Shown here piece by piece: positions 5,313-21,420 of a stretch of DNA of 21,423 nt (positions are counted from its first letter, which is position 1; the number at the start of each line of letters is the position of its first letter). The position numbers and the translations under genes are program-made. The notes beneath the pieces are model-generated. The model worked only from the letters and a program-made list of their open reading frames with translations. It made no database searches and had not been told where the DNA came from. Source of the stretch: Planctomycetota bacterium (GTDB taxonomy: Bacteria; Planctomycetota; Planctomycetia; Pirellulales; Pirellulaceae); the NCBI GenBank assembly GCA_026692885.1, contig JAPLNJ010000363.1, positions 1-21,423 on the forward strand, in the 5' to 3' direction.

Positions 5313-6671
5313 ATGCTGACTCGCTACTTCTATCGCTACGTTGTCATTCCAGCTTTCGAAACACTCTACAAGCGGCGCAAGACGCTGCAATACTGGAAAC
5401 AGTTGGAACGTAGTCAGTGGTGGTCGCCCGAGGAGTTGCAGGCCGAGCAATTTGCGGCCCTGCAGCGTCTGCTCCGACACGCTGCGGAGAACTGCCCGTA
5501 CTACCGCAACCTCTGGGCAGAGCACCGGTTGAATGTGCGCGATATCCAGTCTCCTGCGGATTTTCAGCGCTGGCCGTTGTTGCAGCGAGAGCACGTTCTG
5601 GAACACCGTCCCGCCTTGCGGGCCGAGCATGGCGTGCCACCGCTGATCTCGAAGGCCACCGGCGGCTCGACCGGGATACCGATGCAGTTTGATCTGGACC
5701 GGGGCAGCTACGAACGGCGGAACGCCGCCACACACCGGGGATACGGCTGGGCCGGGGCTACCCCGGGCACCAAGCAGTTCTACCTGTGGGGCGTACCGCT
5801 GGGGCCGCAGCCTGGCTGGAAGGTCTGGAAGAACCGGTTCTACGAGGCCGTGCAGAGACGCCGGGTGGCGAATCTGTTTGAACTGAGCGAGGCCACGGTC
5901 CCGCAGTTCCTCCGCTCGCTCAATAGCTACCGCCCGGATGTGATCGTGGCCTACACCAGCGCCGTTTACCACTTCGCCCGCAGCTTGGCAGAACGTAAGC
6001 AACGCCCGTTTTCGCCTCAAGCCATCATCGTCGGAGCAGAAAAACTCTACGGATTCCAGCGGGAACTGATCGAGTCGGTATTCGGGGCGCCGGTCTTTGA
6101 AACTTACGGTTCGCGCGAATTCATGCTGACGGGTGCCGAGTGCAGCGAGCACGCCGGCTTGCACCTGACCACGGAGCAACTGTGCCTGGAAATCGTGAAC
6201 GACGACGGCACACCGACACCCGCCGGCGAAGTGGGGAATGTGGTGGTCACGGACCTGTACAACTACGGCATGCCCTTCGTCCGATATGTCTGCGGCGATC
6301 AAGCGGTGGCGGGATTCAGCCAGTGCCGCTGCGGGCGTGGTCTACCGCTGCTACAAGAAGTCCGTGGCCGCAAACTGGACGTGCTGCGTACGCCGGACGG
6401 CCGTTTCGTGACGGGCGTCTTCTTCCCGCACTTGATGAAGGACTATCCCGGGGTCAGGCAATTCCAGGTGGTCCAGCCGGCATTGGACCAGCTGGAACTG
6501 CGTGTCGTCTTGGGCCCGTCGTGGAGCGAGTCCGATCAAGCGAAGCTGCTGCAATGCGTCCAACAGACGGTCGGCCCGCTGGTTCGCATCACGTGGCAGC
6601 CCGTGTCCGAAATCCCGTTGACCCGCGCCGGCAAGCACCGCGTGGTGGTTTCGGACATCGCGGAAGCTTAG
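5313..6671 (+). CDS. CapK/phenylacetate-CoA ligase-like adenylate-forming enzyme
   Basis: This 452-residue protein belongs to the PaaK/CapK branch of the ANL superfamily, which activates a carboxylate by adenylation. The phosphate-binding loop is clear (KATGGSTGIPMQF, residues 114-126). Further family features are ETYGSREF, the LCLEIVNDDG and TPTPAGEVGNVVVTDLYNYG region with MPFVRYVCGD, a CRCGRGLP cysteine pair, and GRKLDVLRTPDGRFVTG. A C-terminal subdomain ends at TRAGKHRVVVSDI. CapK-type members sit in capsule and exopolysaccharide clusters, where the substrate is usually unknown; the GT2 and GT4 neighbours fit that setting better than phenylacetate catabolism. Length is usual. The start is supported by alignment of the N-terminus; the ribosome site (AAGAAAG) is weak. 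Confidence 0.88.
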   Translation: MLTRYFYRYVVIPAFETLYKRRKTLQYWKQLERSQWWSPEELQAEQFAALQRLLRHAAENCPYYRNLWAEHRLNVRDIQSPADFQRWPLLQREHVLEHRPALRAEHGVPPLISKATGGSTGIPMQFDLDRGSYERRNAATHRGYGWAGATPGTKQFYLWGVPLGPQPGWKVWKNRFYEAVQRRRVANLFELSEATVPQFLRSLNSYRPDVIVAYTSAVYHFARSLAERKQRPFSPQAIIVGAEKLYGFQRELIESVFGAPVFETYGSREFMLTGAECSEHAGLHLTTEQLCLEIVNDDGTPTPAGEVGNVVVTDLYNYGMPFVRYVCGDQAVAGFSQCRCGRGLPLLQEVRGRKLDVLRTPDGRFVTGVFFPHLMKDYPGVRQFQVVQPALDQLELRVVLGPSWSESDQAKLLQCVQQTVGPLVRITWQPVSEIPLTRAGKHRVVVSDIAEA

Positions 6672-10762: not shown

Positions 10763-12049
10763 TTACGGCTTGGGCTTCTCTAACGCCTGCAGCCGTTCCT
10801 CCTGTTCGTCCAGACGCTTCTGCAGGGCCTCAAGCTGGCTGCGTATCGTCTCCAGGAGACGCGGCAATTCGGCCGGGTTCATGGCCTCGCCCGCTGTCGC
10901 AGAAGGCGCCGTGGGTTCACCGGCCCGTCCCAGTCCCTTAATCAAACGCTCCACACGGTCCAACACCGGCTGTCTAGCCGCAGGTCCGGGATCCGCCGGC
11001 GTCCCATCCGGCAGGGGCGCGGCGGGTTGCAGTTTGTCGGGTGGCGCGGCCGCCACCTCCGCCCCCGCCAACTTCACCTTCGCGCGTTGCAGCCGGTCGC
11101 CGACGTAGTAGGTCAGCTCGACCTCCTGGCCGGCTTGGGCCAGGCGGACTTCTTGGACGAGCTCGTCGGAGATCTTGATCGGCCGCCCCTCAAACGCCAC
11201 AATCGCGGCTCCGACCGGAATCCCGGCCAAGCTGGCGGAGGAGTTGGCGCGAACCGCGGTGACCAAGGCCCCCGCTTGTACGGTGAGACCGAAGGCGGCG
11301 CATGACTCCGGTGTAAGATCGTTGACCGTGATCCCCAAACTCGGTTTGCCGGCGGCAAGTGCGGCCTGGGGCGCGGCCGGACTGGGCAACACATCCGGCG
11401 CCGCCGGCAGGGACGGAGGCATGGGTGGAGGCAGGGACGGAGGCACGGGCGCCGCATCGGATTCCTGCTCGGCGGGCGGGGGCAGAACGGGCGATCCGTC
11501 GAGCTTCTTCTCGCTCGGTGCCGCGGGCCTCAGCAGCTCCTCGGCCGGTGGTGACGGCCGGGGAGGCAGCTCGGATTTATTCTCGCCCGGCGGCGACAGA
11601 CTCGGGGCCTTTGGCGTCTCGTCCGGCTTCTTGCCCAACGTCACCAGGATGGCTTGGACTTTGCCCTTGCGGTCAACCTGGAACGCGATCTTGTCGCCCG
11701 GCTGCTTGCCTTTCAGAGCCTGGGCCATCTCGTCCAGGCTACCCACGGCCTGTTGGTTGATCGACTTGATGACGTCATCGGGACGAACGCCCGCTTGTTC
11801 TGCCGGGCCTTTGGCGCGGACCGACACCACTCGCACACCCTGACCGCCTTCACCGATATCGTCGCCGACGAGTCCCAGGAACACCCCGCTGGACTCGCTC
11901 GTCGCCACTGCCGGCTTGACGAGCACGCTGTTCGCGCCAGCTTTAGGCGTCCCCTTCAATTTGTCGAAGAACGATTGAGCACCGGCCGTGCGCACGCCTG
12001 CCAGGCCCACGACCACCGCGATGGCTGCGAGATACGTACTGCGTTTCAT
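10763..12049 (-). CDS. Exported two-PDZ-domain protein with proline-rich linker and C-terminal coiled coil
   Basis: This 428-residue protein has a signal peptide (MKRSTYLAAIAVVVGLAGVR, probable cleavage after TAGA at 24). PDZ domain 1 spans about 55-138, with VRAKGPAEQAGVRPDDVIKSI and GDKIAFQVDRKGK. A roughly 90-residue Pro/Ala/Ser linker (about 142-232, with PPSLPPPMPPSLP) follows. A divergent PDZ domain 2 spans about 235-328 (SLGITVNDLTPESCAAFGL, ANSSASLAGIPVGAAIVAFE). The final 45 residues are a heptad-like coiled coil (ELPRLLETIRSQLEALQKRL). No trypsin-like protease domain is present, so it is not a DegP-type protease; a scaffold or adaptor in the periplasm is more likely. AAGGGGG before the ATG supports the start. 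The isomerase-like gene follows. Domain calls are firm, role unknown. Confidence 0.85.
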   Translation of the reverse strand: MKRSTYLAAIAVVVGLAGVRTAGAQSFFDKLKGTPKAGANSVLVKPAVATSESSGVFLGLVGDDIGEGGQGVRVVSVRAKGPAEQAGVRPDDVIKSINQQAVGSLDEMAQALKGKQPGDKIAFQVDRKGKVQAILVTLGKKPDETPKAPSLSPPGENKSELPPRPSPPAEELLRPAAPSEKKLDGSPVLPPPAEQESDAAPVPPSLPPPMPPSLPAAPDVLPSPAAPQAALAAGKPSLGITVNDLTPESCAAFGLTVQAGALVTAVRANSSASLAGIPVGAAIVAFEGRPIKISDELVQEVRLAQAGQEVELTYYVGDRLQRAKVKLAGAEVAAAPPDKLQPAAPLPDGTPADPGPAARQPVLDRVERLIKGLGRAGEPTAPSATAGEAMNPAELPRLLETIRSQLEALQKRLDEQEERLQALEKPKP

Positions 12050-15093: not shown

Positions 15094-15165
15094 GACGCTC
15101 TGCGTCCTTAGACAGACGACGCGGAGCGTCAAAACACTTGCGTTCCCACGCGGAGCATGGGAACG
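15094..15165. repeat. Two further hairpin repeats next to the dnaA terminator
   Basis: GACGCTCTGCGTC (15094-15106) pairs with GACGCGGAGCGTC (15118-15130) at 12 of 13 positions. CGTTCCCA (15141-15148) pairs perfectly with TGGGAACG (15158-15165). The second belongs to the same CTCGTTCCC-type family as 19867-19891. They sit in the convergent gap between dnaA and the thioredoxin-like gene. Confidence 0.6.
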
Positions 15166-15174
15166 AGAGACGCC

Positions 15175-15990: not shown

Positions 15991-18900
15991 GTGACTGGCT
16001 GGCGTTTCGTGATTCGCAGTCTTGTCTATCACTGGCGCATGAACGCCACCGTGGCGCTAGGAGTAGCCGCGGCGACCGCCGTTTTGACCGGGGCCTTGCT
16101 GGTTGGCGACTCGGTACGTGGCAGCCTGCGACGATTGACACTGGACCGTCTGGGCTGCATCGACGAGATCCTTATTTCCGAGCGTTTCTTCCGCGCGGAC
16201 TTGGCTGCCGAGGTGTCCGCAAGTCCCGGCTTCCGCAAACATTTCGCCACGACCATCCCGGCGATCTTGTTTCCGCGAGCCACGCTGGAGAAACGGGCTG
16301 AAGCGGTAGTCGCTCGGGCGTCCCAGGTGACCGTGATTGGATCTCAGCCGGACTTCTGGGCCGCCGGGAAAATTACTGTCAGACCACGTGTCTTGCCGGA
16401 AGATGGCGAGATTGTGCTGAATGCTCCGCTGGCTGCAGAGCTCGACGCCAAGGTCGGCGATCAGGTGGTGTTGCGACTGCCCAAATCCAATCTGGTTCCG
16501 GCGGACAGTCCGCTCGGGCGCAGGACGGATCGCATTCGCAGTTTGCCCGGTCTGAAAGTCGTGGACATCGTCCCTGCGGAGGGTCTTGGCTGCTTTAGCT
16601 GGCAGGCCAGCCAGACGACGCCTCGCAACGCCTATGTCGCCACCCGGACCCTGGAGTCGGCGATCCAACAGCCAGGCCAAGTGAACTCGCTGCTGGTCAT
16701 CGGCAGCGCGACAGATTCGCCGCCGAGCCAAGCCGCCGAGGATGCGTTGGCCAATGCGTTGCGACCAAGCCTGGAAGATTACGGACTTGTGGTCCGCCGC
16801 ATCCGCCACACGTTTCAGCCCGCGGGCGCGGGCCAGGAGGAGACCGTTTACGACTACTTCGACGTGTCCACCGACCGGCTGTTGTTTGCCCCAGCGGCAG
16901 GCCAGGCCGCCGAGCAGGCGCTGGCCGATGAACAGGTCCAGCCGGTGTTGACCAACCTGGCCACCTCCCTTGCCAAAGCCGGCGCCGAGGCAGCGTCCGG
17001 TATCCCCTACTCGCTGGTGACCGCGGTGGATTCCTGCCCGCCGCTCGGACCGTTGGCGACGGAGCCTGGGGACTCTGGGGAACGGCTGGCGGATGACGAG
17101 ATCGTATTGAATAGTTGGGCCGCGTCGGATTTGCGCGCCACCCCTGGCGATCGTATTCGCATGACGTTCTATGAACCCGAGACGACGCACGGTAAACCGC
17201 GGGAACAGACGGCCGAGTTCACGCTAAAGGCGATCGTCCCGCTCACGGAACCGACCTCGCCCGTTCGGCGCAATCGGCCGGCGCGCTACAAGCAGCGTCC
17301 GGGGTTGGCCAACGACCCCGACCTGACCCCCGTCGTGGAAGGCCTCACGGACCAGGATTCGATCAGCAAATGGGAAGCACCGTTTCCCGTCGATTACCGC
17401 CGCGTTCGTCCCCAGGACGACGTCTATTGGCAGAACCATCGCACGACCCCCAAAGCCTTCCTGACGCTGGCGGCGGGGCGAAAACTCTGGGCCAGCCGTT
17501 TCGGGCAGTCCACCTCGTTCCGCATCCCCGCGCCGACCGGGTTGCGGCCCGGCAGTCAGGCGGAGCAACGGTTCGAGCGGAGGCTGGAGGACCGGCTCCT
17601 GGAGCAACTGGACGCACGTCGGGCTCAGCTGGGCTTCGCGTTCTTGCCGGTCAAGGCACGGGGCTTGGCGGCCTCGGCAGGCACGACGCCGTTCGGTGTG
17701 CTGTTTCTATTTCTCAGCTTCTTCGTGATCGCCGCCGCGATTCTGCTGGTCGCCTTGCTGTTCCGGCTGGGCGTCGAGCGCCGGGCCGAGGAGATCGGCA
17801 TCCTGCTGGCCCTCGGTCTACAGCGCAAGCAGATCGGTCGCTGGTTGATGGGTGAAGGCGGGTTGGTGGCGACGGCAGGCGGCGTGTTCGGCGTGGCCAC
17901 CGGCGTGGGCTATGCCTGGCTGATGCTCGCCGGACTGCGGACGTGTTGGTCGGGCGCCGTCCAGACGCCGTCGCTGGGGCTGTACGTGACACCCGCCAGC
18001 CTGGGGATCGGGTACCTCAGCGGAGTCCTCGTCTCGGTGGCCACGATCGCCTGGAGCCTGCGCGGAACGCAAGCCATCTCCGTCTGCCGCTTGTTAGCTG
18101 GCGAAGCGTCTGCGGAGGCTCGACCGAAGGATAGCTCCCTCGCCCCGGTACTCCGGGGAGAGGGTGGGGGTGAGGGGCGTACGAGCAAATGCCGAAGTTA
18201 TTCTTCAGCCGATCCGAAGCATGCACGAATGGCGCCGCCAGGACGCTGGAGAACGTTCATCCCCGTCGGATTGCTACTGACAGCAATCGGTCTGGTGATC
18301 GGCGCCACGCGCTGGGGAGGCGAAGCCCAGGCCGGGGCCTTCGTCGGTTCGGGAACGTTGGTGTTGGCCGCTCTGTTGATCACCGTTCGCAACCGACTCA
18401 GATTGCGCGGCGTTGTCGGACTGAGGCCCGCCCAAATGCGGCTGGCGACGCTGGCACTACAAAACGCAGGGCGCAATCCGGGCCGCAGCACGGCCACCAT
18501 CGGGCTGATGGCAATGGCGAGTTTCCTGATTGTGGCGATGAGCGCTTTTCGCCTGGAACCCTCAGCCGTCGGCACCGGCGGGTTTGACCTGATCGCAGAG
18601 AGTTCCGAACCGATCTTCGGGAACCTCAACCGGCCGGAGGTTCGCCAGGATCTGCTGGCGGATGACGCGGGCAAACTGGCGGATACCGCGATCATCGGTT
18701 TTCGCGTTCAACCGGGCGATGACGCCAGCTGCAACAACCTCTACCGAGCCACGCAGCCACGCGTCCTGGGCGTCACCGAGGAATTGATCCGGCATTTCGA
18801 CGCGGCGGGCGGTCCGTCCTTCGCCTGGGCGTCCAGCGCGGCGAAGACTGCCGCGGAACAAACCAATCCATGGCGACTGCTGAGTCCCGAGTTGCCAGCG

Positions 18901-19836
18901 AAATCGGAGGGCGAGACTCCCGGCTCGGCAGGAGTCGTGCCATCCCGAGGTCCCGTACCCGGGCCTGCGCGGAATTCGACCGCGGGGCGGACGGACGCCG
19001 AACCAGCCGCTGCGGTACCCGTGGTCCTGGACCAGAACACCGCCATGTACAGCCTGCAGCTGTACCAAGGGATCGGGGAAGAATTCGCGGTGACGTACGA
19101 CGACGGCCAGACGATCCGTTTTCGGGTCGTGGGCCTGCTGGCCAACAGTATCCTGCAAGGCAGCCTGCTGATCAGCGAGCAGGATTTTGTCCAACGTTAT
19201 CCGGCGGTCAGCGGCTATCGCTTGTTCTTGATCCAGTCGCAGCGGAACCCGCCCCCGCCGAAAAACAACGCCCTCGCCTCGGTAGTCCGGGGTGAGGATT
19301 GGGTTGAGGGGCCGACGAGCAAACGCCGAAGTTACTTTTCGGCCGTGCCCACGTCCCCGCCGGTCGCCACCCTGTTAGAGGCCAGACTCAGCGACCAGGG
19401 CTTCGACGCCGTCTCGGCGGACGCGCGTCTGGCCGACCTGCTGGCCGTGCAGAATACCTACCTGAGCACGTTCCAAAGTTTGGGTGCGTTGGGACTCCTG
19501 TTGGGCACCTTCGGCTTGGCGGCGGTGCAGGCCCGCAACGTTCTGGAACGTCGCCGCGAATTGGCCTTGTTGCGTGCCGTAGGATTCCGCTTGGCCAGCC
19601 TCGCTCGGCTCGTGATGTTCGAGAACATCGGCCTCTTGGTCGCCGGTTTGGCGACCGGTTGCGGTGCCGCCCTGATCGTCGTCCTGCCGCACCTGCTGTT
19701 GGGCGGAGCCGCCGTGCCGTGGCGCGACCTGGCGATCATGCTGGGCAGCGTATTGCTCGTGGGCCTGCTCGTCAGCCTCGCCACGGTGCGGACCACCCTC
19801 CGGGCGCCGCTGCTGCCAGCCTTGCGTGGGGACTGA
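15991..19836 (+). CDS. Large ABC-transporter permease with two FtsX domains
   Basis: This 1281-residue inner-membrane protein has one N-terminal membrane helix (NATVALGVAAATAVLTGALL), a large extracytoplasmic domain and a first FtsX domain near 565-690 (FLFLSFFVIAAAILLVALLF, RRAEEIGILLALGLQRKQIG). Further helices lie at about 750-850. A second extracytoplasmic part precedes a terminal FtsX domain at about 1145-1275 (RRELALLRAVGFRLASLARL). This is the MacB/LolCDE-like fold that couples ATP use to extracytoplasmic work such as lipoprotein or peptide release. No ATPase gene is in the window. The GTG start has AGGAG 5 nt upstream. Residues 716-742 and 1094-1120 are translated copies of one DNA repeat, and 972-986 of another, all in predicted loops. 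The reading frame is uninterrupted. Confidence 0.88.
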   Translation: MTGWRFVIRSLVYHWRMNATVALGVAAATAVLTGALLVGDSVRGSLRRLTLDRLGCIDEILISERFFRADLAAEVSASPGFRKHFATTIPAILFPRATLEKRAEAVVARASQVTVIGSQPDFWAAGKITVRPRVLPEDGEIVLNAPLAAELDAKVGDQVVLRLPKSNLVPADSPLGRRTDRIRSLPGLKVVDIVPAEGLGCFSWQASQTTPRNAYVATRTLESAIQQPGQVNSLLVIGSATDSPPSQAAEDALANALRPSLEDYGLVVRRIRHTFQPAGAGQEETVYDYFDVSTDRLLFAPAAGQAAEQALADEQVQPVLTNLATSLAKAGAEAASGIPYSLVTAVDSCPPLGPLATEPGDSGERLADDEIVLNSWAASDLRATPGDRIRMTFYEPETTHGKPREQTAEFTLKAIVPLTEPTSPVRRNRPARYKQRPGLANDPDLTPVVEGLTDQDSISKWEAPFPVDYRRVRPQDDVYWQNHRTTPKAFLTLAAGRKLWASRFGQSTSFRIPAPTGLRPGSQAEQRFERRLEDRLLEQLDARRAQLGFAFLPVKARGLAASAGTTPFGVLFLFLSFFVIAAAILLVALLFRLGVERRAEEIGILLALGLQRKQIGRWLMGEGGLVATAGGVFGVATGVGYAWLMLAGLRTCWSGAVQTPSLGLYVTPASLGIGYLSGVLVSVATIAWSLRGTQAISVCRLLAGEASAEARPKDSSLAPVLRGEGGGEGRTSKCRSYSSADPKHARMAPPGRWRTFIPVGLLLTAIGLVIGATRWGGEAQAGAFVGSGTLVLAALLITVRNRLRLRGVVGLRPAQMRLATLALQNAGRNPGRSTATIGLMAMASFLIVAMSAFRLEPSAVGTGGFDLIAESSEPIFGNLNRPEVRQDLLADDAGKLADTAIIGFRVQPGDDASCNNLYRATQPRVLGVTEELIRHFDAAGGPSFAWASSAAKTAAEQTNPWRLLSPELPAKSEGETPGSAGVVPSRGPVPGPARNSTAGRTDAEPAAAVPVVLDQNTAMYSLQLYQGIGEEFAVTYDDGQTIRFRVVGLLANSILQGSLLISEQDFVQRYPAVSGYRLFLIQSQRNPPPPKNNALASVVRGEDWVEGPTSKRRSYFSAVPTSPPVATLLEARLSDQGFDAVSADARLADLLAVQNTYLSTFQSLGALGLLLGTFGLAAVQARNVLERRRELALLRAVGFRLASLARLVMFENIGLLVAGLATGCGAALIVVLPHLLLGGAAVPWRDLAIMLGSVLLVGLLVSLATVRTTLRAPLLPALRGD
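18137..18215 (+). repeat. In-frame 79-bp repeat, copy 1, inside FtsX-type permease gene
   Basis: This copy contains a hairpin, CCCTCGCCCCGG pairing with CCGGGGAGAGGG at 11 of 12 positions around TACT, followed by a tail with ACGAGCAAATGCCGAAGTTA. It is translated as LAPVLRGEGGGEG then RTSKCRSYSSADP. It aligns without gaps to 19271-19349, with 65 of 79 bases identical, and is read in the same frame. Confidence 0.85.
18906..18944 (+). repeat. In-frame insertion related to the 21130-21204 element
   Basis: The left part (GGAGGGCGAGACTCCC) matches the left end of the 21130-21204 element at 14 of 16 positions. The right part (CGGCTCGGCAGGAG and onward) matches its right end at 20 of 24. The middle of the element is missing. 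The segment is translated within the extracytoplasmic part of the permease (SEGETPGSAGVVPS). Confidence 0.6.
19271..19349 (+). repeat. In-frame 79-bp repeat, copy 2, inside FtsX-type permease gene
   Basis: Second copy of the 18137-18215 repeat, translated as LASVVRGEDWVEG then PTSKRRSYFSAVP. The hairpin has diverged (CCCTCGCCTCGG with CCGGGGTGAGGA), but two of the three changes remain as G-U pairs in RNA. It lies in the last extracytoplasmic loop before the terminal FtsX domain. Confidence 0.85.
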
Positions 19837-19866
19837 CCCGGATGCTGTAAACCTCCCGGAAACCCT

Positions 19867-19971
19867 CGTTCCCAGGCTCCGCCTGGGAACGCACTGCCTT
19901 GCCGACTCCGCCGGCCTTCCTACGAGGCGGAGCCTCGCGTCCAGTGGGTTACGAGGCCGAGCCCCGTAACC
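19867..19971. repeat. Three tandem hairpin repeats after the permease gene
   Basis: CGTTCCCAGGC (19867-19877) pairs perfectly with 19881-19891 around TCC. CGAGGC (19923-19928) pairs with GCCTCG (19932-19937). GGTTACGAGGC (19947-19957) pairs with GCCCCGTAACC (19961-19971) at 10 of 11 positions around CGA. All have 3-nt loops. No T-tract follows. They are best read as dispersed palindromic repeats that may also protect or end the permease transcript. Confidence 0.65.
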
Positions 19972-20030: not shown

Positions 20031-20382
20031 CAGGTCCGGCCTGGCCCGCGCAAAATTGGCGAGTCGGGCGTCAAACGGATGGTCCTGTTTTCGTTCCGCC
20101 CCCATCCGGGCTTGCCCCGGTGGAGCGAGGTTTCTGGTCTACGCCACGGATCCGCGACCGCCTCACTTCTTCCGCTGCCTCCCGCCCGCCGCCTCCGGCG
20201 GCGGGCGGGAGGCGGCGGAAGACAGCACGGCTAGAGTCTGCCAACGTAGTGTACGAAACCCAATTCCACCGGGGCAAGCCCGGATGGGGAGCAGACATGC
20301 CAAGCTGGAACAAAAGCCGGACCAGATCGCACCATTGCAAGGACTCTCTGGGATACAATTTTTCGCGGCCCAGGTCCGGCCT
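20031..20382. repeat. About 350-bp foldback (MITE-like) element
   Basis: The whole segment is a nested inverted repeat. The 25-bp arms 20100-20124 and 20265-20289 are exact complements. The centre is a 24-bp stem (20170-20193 with 20197-20220, 23 of 24 paired) around TCC. Outer parts pair imperfectly, including CAATTTT near 20356 with AAAATTG near 20052. CAGGTCCGGCCT occurs at both edges (20031-20042 and 20371-20382) as a direct repeat. No ORF encodes a transposase. The right edge touches the stop codon of the DJ-1 gene. Confidence 0.75.
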
Positions 20383-20957: not shown

Positions 20958-21129
20958 TCGTCTCCAAGAGCACGGGTTGGTTTTCGCATGAATTTGCGTC
21001 ACCAGACAATGTATCGTCAGCACCGGTCTATGGGAACCGGCTGACAGGGAACCGGCCGACGGGTGTTCACGGCGGAGTGCCGATTTCCGGTGAGTCTAGG
21101 TTGCTCATGGAAAACGAGAGCACGTAGAT

Positions 21130-21204
21130 GGGGAGGGCGACGCTCCCGCGGAGCCGTAGGCCGTTCCTGACGGCCCGCTCCGGCTCGGCAGGAGCCTCGC
21201 CCTC
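21130..21204. repeat. Dispersed hairpin element, fullest copy
   Basis: The ends GAGGGCGACGCTCC and GGAGCCTCGCCCTC pair at 13 of 14 positions around a GC-rich middle. The left 22 bp recurs exactly at 1285-1306. The right 24 bp recurs at 15922-15945 (21 of 24) and at 18921-18944 inside the permease gene (20 of 24). It is a multicopy palindromic element with no coding content. Confidence 0.65.
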
Positions 21205-21260: not shown

Positions 21261-21420
21261 TTAACGGTTCAGCAGAGACGGGGCGTGAGACAAGGGGTCA
21301 GACGTACAGATTTCAGTTTTCGCGGTCGTGTGCCCAAGCCTAGGGAAAGCCTGCTGCCCGCGAAAACTGAAATCTGTACGTCTGACCCCAGCTGGCGGTC
21401 CGTCTCTGCGAAACCGTAAA
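21261..21420. repeat. 160-bp nested inverted repeat (MITE or REP-pair-like)
   Basis: 21294-21325 and 21358-21389 are exact 32-bp inverted repeats starting GGGGTCAGACGTACAG and separated by 32 nt. Outside them, CAGAGACGG-containing 21261-21281 pairs imperfectly with CCGTCTCTGCG-containing 21400-21420, leaving short unpaired spacers of 12 and 10 nt. No ORF is present. GGGGTCAGAC-type termini are, from memory, typical of REP elements mobilised by RAYT transposases. The right boundary may extend past the window. Confidence 0.75.

Follow-up and report, generated by a model that had tools for sequence, protein, structure and literature searches.

A permease gene in a 21,423-nucleotide contig from a Pirellulaceae bacterium (JAPLNJ010000363.1, hereafter the window) carries two in-frame copies of a palindromic repeat. 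With a probability that we place at about 0.83, both segments are copies of a non-autonomous palindromic element resembling the Rickettsia palindromic elements (RPEs), repetitive extragenic palindromes (REPs) and miniature inverted-repeat transposable elements (MITEs), which inserted twice into tolerant segments of an FtsX-type ABC permease and has been drifting there. The gene and the parts of the two copies are as follows:

15991..19836, plus strand: FtsX-type ABC permease hosting the insertions, 1281 aa; Pfam PF02687 (E 5.6e-20) in two stretches; aligned with 119 other homologs
18122..18210, plus strand: first 89-bp palindromic unit (copy 1), with insert 1 aligned at residues 710-742 (18118-18216)
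18122..18135, plus strand: left inverted end of copy 1, matching its right end at 10/14 positions
18137..18164, plus strand: REP-like core stem of copy 1, a 12-position stem with a TACT loop; core plus right arm 18134-18178
18197..18210, minus strand: right inverted end of copy 1
19256..19344, plus strand: second 89-bp unit (copy 2), with insert 2 aligned at residues 1084-1120 (19240-19350)
19256..19269, plus strand: left inverted end of copy 2 (11/14)
19271..19298, plus strand: REP-like core stem-loop of copy 2; core plus right arm 19268-19312
19331..19344, minus strand: right inverted end of copy 2

Structure of the repeated unit

Segments 18137-18215 and 19271-19349 align without gaps, are identical at 65 of 79 positions and occupy the same codon phase of the open reading frame (ORF) 15991-19836, just as a preliminary description of this DNA had reported. 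The 79-bp extent given there falls short of the real unit, which measures 89 bp, possesses inverted ends and is identical at 70 of 89 positions between 18122-18210 and 19256-19344. When the window was searched for repeats, this pair ranked first among the direct repeats (88 nt, 81%), and a pattern representing the 26-base tail (up to 3 mismatches) found two matches in the window and none in 100 shuffles. The 14-bp inverted ends are imperfect, agreeing at 10 of 14 positions in copy 1 and 11 of 14 in copy 2; among the 21334 window positions at this spacing, the copies included, 15 score 10 and another 5 score 11. The core stem CCCTCGCCCCGG/CCGGGGAGAGGG, initially presented as palindromic, is real and pairs throughout except for a G.A mismatch at the sixth position. 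As RNA, copy 1 folds at -41.2 kcal/mol compared with -29.8 (sd 3.1) for mononucleotide shuffles, its ends forming a closing stem that encloses two inner hairpins, and copy 2 folds at -39.6 kcal/mol compared with -28.9 (sd 3.6). Each window copy contains a single core rather than an inverted core pair, and three of its six frames are free of stops over 92 translated bases. An Rfam search of the window returned no match, and an NCBIfam search returned four weak families, none above its own cut-off.

Distribution of the inserts among permease homologs

Homologs of the window permease (P0001) were compared among the best 120 of 5129 matches, one of which is the window's own protein. Both inserts, with the same peptide, are present in a single one of the 119 others, namely P0003, the closest of these homologs at 80% identity; P0004, at 65% identity, lacks insert 1 and insert 2, and P0064 has unrelated residues at the site of insert 2. 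Similarly, a hidden Markov model (HMM) of the element found no copy in 20 long orthologs, drawn from 203 matching orthologs in the genomes compared, with the sequence of one (L167) masked near site 1. The insertions are thus absent from the other orthologs examined and shared with the sister protein, contrary to the outcome named beforehand as refuting the repeat reading, namely orthologous permeases that all contain both segments. The nearest relative in a named genome belongs to Candidatus Anammoximicrobium (Pirellulaceae) and is approximately 63% identical across permease residues 1-708.

By a simple hydropathy estimate, which agrees with the original placement of both segments in predicted loops, insert 1 falls in the linker joining the permease halves, flanked by hydrophobic stretches 669-687 and 753-775, and insert 2 falls in the second soluble domain, flanked by stretches 833-855 and 1161-1179; the latter domain also houses a third insert described below. 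Insert 1 and inserts 2 and 3 probably occupy opposite sides of the membrane, which argues against a shared function. A separate observation concerns the 1590-aa homolog P0037, in which several hundred unrelated residues follow the equivalent of window residue 740, in the inter-half linker that is the site of insert 1; this long extra stretch represents either a fusion or an assembly error.

The presence of both inserts in P0003 places both insertions before the split between P0001 and P0003. Within each protein, copies 1 and 2 have 16 (P0001) or 15 (P0003) of 26 aligned residues in common, while orthologous copies in the two proteins share 19 (copy 1) and 14 (copy 2) of 26; that within-protein and between-protein distances are so similar likewise suggests that the insertions predate the split, perhaps not by much. 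The 17 differences between the two DNA copies fall 6/5/6 across the three codon positions, a spread that gives no sign of selection at the peptide level. Moreover, P0001 and P0003 agree at 54 of 104 residues within the three inserts and at 975 of 1177 elsewhere, so that drift in the inserts contrasts with conservation of the host protein. The insert peptides therefore look neutral.

Dispersal of the REP-like core

The two segments are kin to a dispersed repeat, as had been surmised when they were first described as repeat DNA rather than a domain duplication: the core occurs in many genomes outside the permease gene. Specifically, an HMM of 45 copies from other genomes matches the window at 18132-18188 (E 6.1e-16) and 19271-19321 (E 1e-8), the next best match having an E-value of 1.8 and the best match on the reversed window one of 6.5. 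At E <= 0.001, Blastn detects the core in 63 of 199 Pirellulaceae genomes, and the 28-base stem-loop of copy 1, with up to 3 mismatches, is found in 18 of 241 Pirellulaceae genomes and in none of the controls. Copies of the stem-loop number 140 in genome G054 (73 on the plus and 67 on the minus strand) and 30 in G097 (11 and 19). Some core copies form inverted pairs approximately 80-110 bp apart, for example at 6117/6196 in G098:C461 and at 481/571 in G195:C332.

Pairing within the hairpin is maintained across copies. In an alignment of 43 copies, 91.7% of stem cells are paired and the covariation score is 0.064, values that were each equalled or bettered by 2 of 500 shuffles. Among 64 distinct stems taken from the matches listed (the first places per genome), the pair 11-18 is GC in 48, AT in 4, CG in 2, TA in 4, G.T in 3 and unpaired in 3, and the pair 3-26 is CG in 55, TA in 2, TG in 2 and unpaired in 5; position 6-23 is mostly G.A. 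Neither GTAG nor CGTC adjoins the core in any of 45 copies on the left or in any of the 32 copies with a right arm, and CYGA follows the right arm, on its 3' side, in 10 of those 32.

Outside the planctomycetes, Blastn of the core against plasmids returned partial matches in 75 records, most of them from Sinorhizobium (41), Rhizobium (18) and Azospirillum (9); no match covers 80% of the query. These alphaproteobacterial matches fall in identity bands of 60-90% and could reflect either common origin or convergence.

The long unit and further in-frame cases

Recurrence of the core together with the tail was observed in other proteins. A six-frame peptide query of the unit returned 14 proteins at E <= 10, of which 13 were inspected (all except P0129). 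The same tail comes directly after the core in P0124 (E 6.7e-4), P0131 (E 0.62) and P0127 (E 0.055), with tail scores reached by 0, 1 and 0 of 4000 random segments, respectively, which indicates that the long unit is not confined to the permease gene. The tail is read in a frame different from that of the window in P0124 and P0131 and in the same frame in P0127; by eye, the element in P0124 also has a left end resembling that of the window copies. The core is present without the tail in P0122, P0126, P0128, P0132, P0134 and P0135, and by eye the peptides of P0132, P0134 and P0135 are those of a close inverted pair. A search of 246 Pirellulales genomes with P0135 yielded no match and is uninformative, and a protein search with residues 215-260 of the 500-aa window frame around copy 1 yielded nothing at E <= 10. 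As a side observation, P0127, an ORF of 200 aa for which a PF02811 domain is precomputed, has the core and tail at its C-terminus and might represent a gene that the element has interrupted.

Additional in-frame cases involve the core. In G104, a TPR protein contains two direct core copies, separated by 78 bp, which add LTPALSPEYRGEG-type peptides to it; opposite 53 residues of this query, a TPR paralog in the same genome has a gap of only 45 bp. The TPR ortholog of G040 is 79% identical upstream and exhibits, at the site, a weak element match (E 0.0099) together with a frame change, as expected for a decaying insertion. Lastly, L024, encoded in the genome of L023, Candidatus Anammoximicrobium, has a degenerate core copy between its kinase and FGE-sulfatase domains. 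Location inside a frame was judged from open frames and third-position G+C rather than gene calls, and DNA was examined for 15 of 110 core matches in G054 and 15 of 20 in G097.

A third insert and a second repeat family

While the preliminary description recognized two inserts in an otherwise unduplicated protein, a third in-frame insert lies between them and probably derives from another repeat family, here called REP2. The REP2 HMM was built from 15 copies in G054 and G097. Its matches in the window are as follows:

18906..18950, strand not assigned: candidate remnant of a REP2 inverted pair within the third in-frame insert, residues 969-1002 (18895-18996); also in P0003
15924..15953, plus strand: REP2 copy directly upstream of the permease (E 7.1e-7)
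21128..21164, minus strand: REP2 copy, left arm of a downstream inverted pair (E 4.6e-5)
21181..21204, plus strand: REP2 copy, right arm of the downstream inverted pair (E 2.2e-7)

Inside the permease, the HMM matches 18921-18950 on the plus strand (E 0.0043) and 18906-18922 on the minus strand (E 0.064), the best match on the reversed window having an E-value of 1.7. The pattern was derived from the window's own intergenic repeats, and the intergenic matches therefore arise partly by construction. In other genomes, REP2 copies number 56 on the plus and 50 on the minus strand in G054 and 15 and 11 in G097, with none in five other genomes or in the controls. At the site of the third insert, P0025 has a different long stretch. 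Judged from these sequence matches, identification of the third insert as a REP2 inverted-pair remnant is probable rather than certain.

Interpretation and alternative explanations

In the proposed scenario, the element would consist of an 89-bp unit with imperfect inverted ends, seen so far only in the window, P0003 and a few other database proteins, that encloses a REP-like hairpin core of wider dispersal in Pirellulaceae. It would spread as DNA through a separate enzyme, presumably by transposition, and would have entered two tolerant segments of the permease, namely the inter-half linker and a loop of the second soluble domain. Where the frame is open and the net length divisible by three, the ribosome would be predicted to read through, adding approximately 30 residues per insertion; given that three of six frames are stop-free, a fraction of random insertions of suitable net length would be readable, and those in tolerant segments would survive. 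The REP2 remnant was probably inserted likewise between the two copies.

Several results weigh against this interpretation. Copy 1 served as bait in collecting the 45 copies of the core HMM; the match to copy 1 is therefore partly by construction, and copy 2 provides the fairer test. In the 43-copy alignment, the pairs changed on both sides number 2, a count as high in 82 of 500 shuffles, and further pair types number 5, as high in 67 of 500. By eye, the flanks of both copies have no clear target-site duplication, with no close empty DNA site for comparison, and the unit length of 89 bp is not divisible by three. Only 3 of 45 core copies (two in G104, one in L024) are located deep inside long frames, over 300 codons away from either end; for the remaining 42, either no frame of 150 codons spans the copy or the copy is no more than 150 codons from one end of such a frame. 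No element was found in the flanks of 30 examined Y1-transposase loci (46 matches, 6 other genomes). Furthermore, the six-frame query contained the tail and so favoured tail-bearing proteins, while the tail itself is found in 0 of 241 Pirellulaceae genomes and, in 396 Pirellulales genomes, at a level no different from controls (36 places listed, against approximately 33 control matches). Dispersal of the long unit consequently rests on the peptide-level matches in P0124, P0131 and P0127, at the mostly weak database E-values given above, and the unit seems to be lineage-restricted, since its tail is absent from the family genomes.

That lineage restriction bears on the possibility of a single insertion, with copy 2 derived from copy 1 by local duplication or conversion within the gene. 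Both copies have the whole unit in common, the restricted tail included (70/89), and the window has no third copy; nevertheless, the same core and tail occur in P0124, P0131 and P0127, placing the unit beyond this gene, and in both copies the ends of the repeat coincide with the inverted ends, as a result of which we regard local duplication as unlikely. Retention of the segments for a function, whether as an RNA hairpin tuning translation or mRNA stability or as a peptide with a role of its own, would accord with the better-than-shuffled folding of both units and with the persistence of both segments in two proteins 80% identical, yet the even spread of differences across codon positions and the poor conservation of the inserts relative to the rest of P0003 make such a function quite improbable.

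The remaining explanations can be given little credence. The insertion sites are variable, with unrelated insertions there in P0064, P0025 and P0037, as might be anticipated of ordinary protein-level repeat or linker expansion without mobile DNA; the core is scattered over numerous sites on either strand of other genomes and is read in other frames elsewhere, which renders that explanation very unlikely. Duplication of a protein domain is ruled out by the recurrence of the core outside the gene and in other frames. Although the window derives from a single record, an assembly artefact is scarcely conceivable, as P0003, encoded on other contigs (the longest of 360 kb), carries all three inserts.

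Relation to known palindromic elements

RPEs are short palindromes with terminal inverted repeats that occur in intergenic DNA and fused in frame inside conserved genes (PMC2229807). The window unit resembles them in being palindromic with inverted ends (10/14 and 11/14) and in lying in frame within a gene whose orthologs lack it (118 of 119 listed homologs have neither insert). It differs in length, RPEs measuring 105-146 bp (PMC2229807) as opposed to 89 bp, as well as in its G+C-rich core, its Pirellulaceae host and the lack of a CGTC or GTAG tag beside the core, the comparison being one of descriptions rather than sequences. The likeness to RPEs drawn in the preliminary description accordingly stands as regards in-frame palindromic insertion; such behaviour is not exclusive to Rickettsia, as REPs are found within ORFs of several other bacteria (PMC3733652).

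In that source, REP hairpins lie inside ORFs, where dimers and groups add 20-30 residues, and sometimes occur twice per gene, including a double insertion in uvrA of the verrucomicrobium O. terrae, and CGTC REPs are reported to be without a dedicated transposase (Di Nocera 2013, PMC3733652). The planctomycete core shares with GTAG/CGTC REPs the intragenic hairpins and doubles (PMC3733652), with inverted pairs also occurring among its copies, but lacks the adjoining tag and, in the window, sits inside a longer unit whose ends are inverted repeats. Inverted core pairs in other genomes likewise recall REP doublets forming hairpins (REPINs) and their REP-associated tyrosine transposases (RAYTs); the window copies, by comparison, are single, and none of the 30 examined Y1 loci is flanked by the element, which rules out a Y1 transposase as its neighbour at those loci. 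Class 3 TnpA(Y1)-associated structures of Planctomycetes, Acidobacteria and Proteobacteria are described as hairpins that can be multi-copy and have a CnGA foot (PMC6006769). In contrast, the core studied here has CYGA at its right arm in only 10 of 32 copies, on the 3' side, and none of the Y1 loci examined has an element beside it.

Taken together, the insertions described here are the same kind of event as that documented for RPEs in Rickettsia genes and REPs in bacterial ORFs (PMC2229807, PMC3733652). A literature search at the level of titles and abstract openings, with the intragenic-REP list in Additional file 3 of PMC3733652 outside its scope, found no report of in-frame palindromic elements in planctomycete genes. 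New features are the planctomycete host, the sequence family (RPEs being compared by description), the placement of a REP-like core inside a longer unit whose ends are inverted, and a further family as the probable source of the third hit. Palindromic repeats with coding potential are also reportedly the subject, by title, of work on Wolbachia and Methanocaldococcus jannaschii. In-frame palindromic insertions are best known in Rickettsia, where the usual backdrop is genome reduction. The present data suggest that planctomycete repeat DNA can enter proteins as it does in Rickettsia, and a permease that has two, probably three, insertions, shares them with a sister protein and is otherwise intact suggests that the process needs no genome decay. 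More tentatively, planctomycete REP-like elements might constitute a general and still-spreading source of protein segments in a non-parasitic phylum, entering conserved genes in several frames and orientations, singly, in tandem or as inverted pairs, and with multiple families per gene. The inserts provide a natural series for studying how proteins tolerate mobile DNA.

Other repeats in the window

Repeats of other kinds were noted in the window. A 29-nt inverted pair (93%) of the type GTTCCCA..TGGGAAC lies on either side of the permease (15139-15167 and 19865-19893) and is perhaps another dispersed repeat family. Nested palindromes occupy 20100-20289, where a 35-nt inverted repeat (89%) encloses a 26-nt hairpin (96%) at 20168-20222. 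A perfect 32-bp inverted repeat with 32 nt between its arms, beginning GGGGTCAGACGTACAGATTT, spans 21294-21389 and presumably resembles the ends of IS200-like or terminal inverted repeat-associated elements. Finally, GGCAGGGACGGAGGCAYGGG occurs twice, 24 bp apart, at 11406-11449 within the ORF of a PDZ-domain protein (10763-12049).

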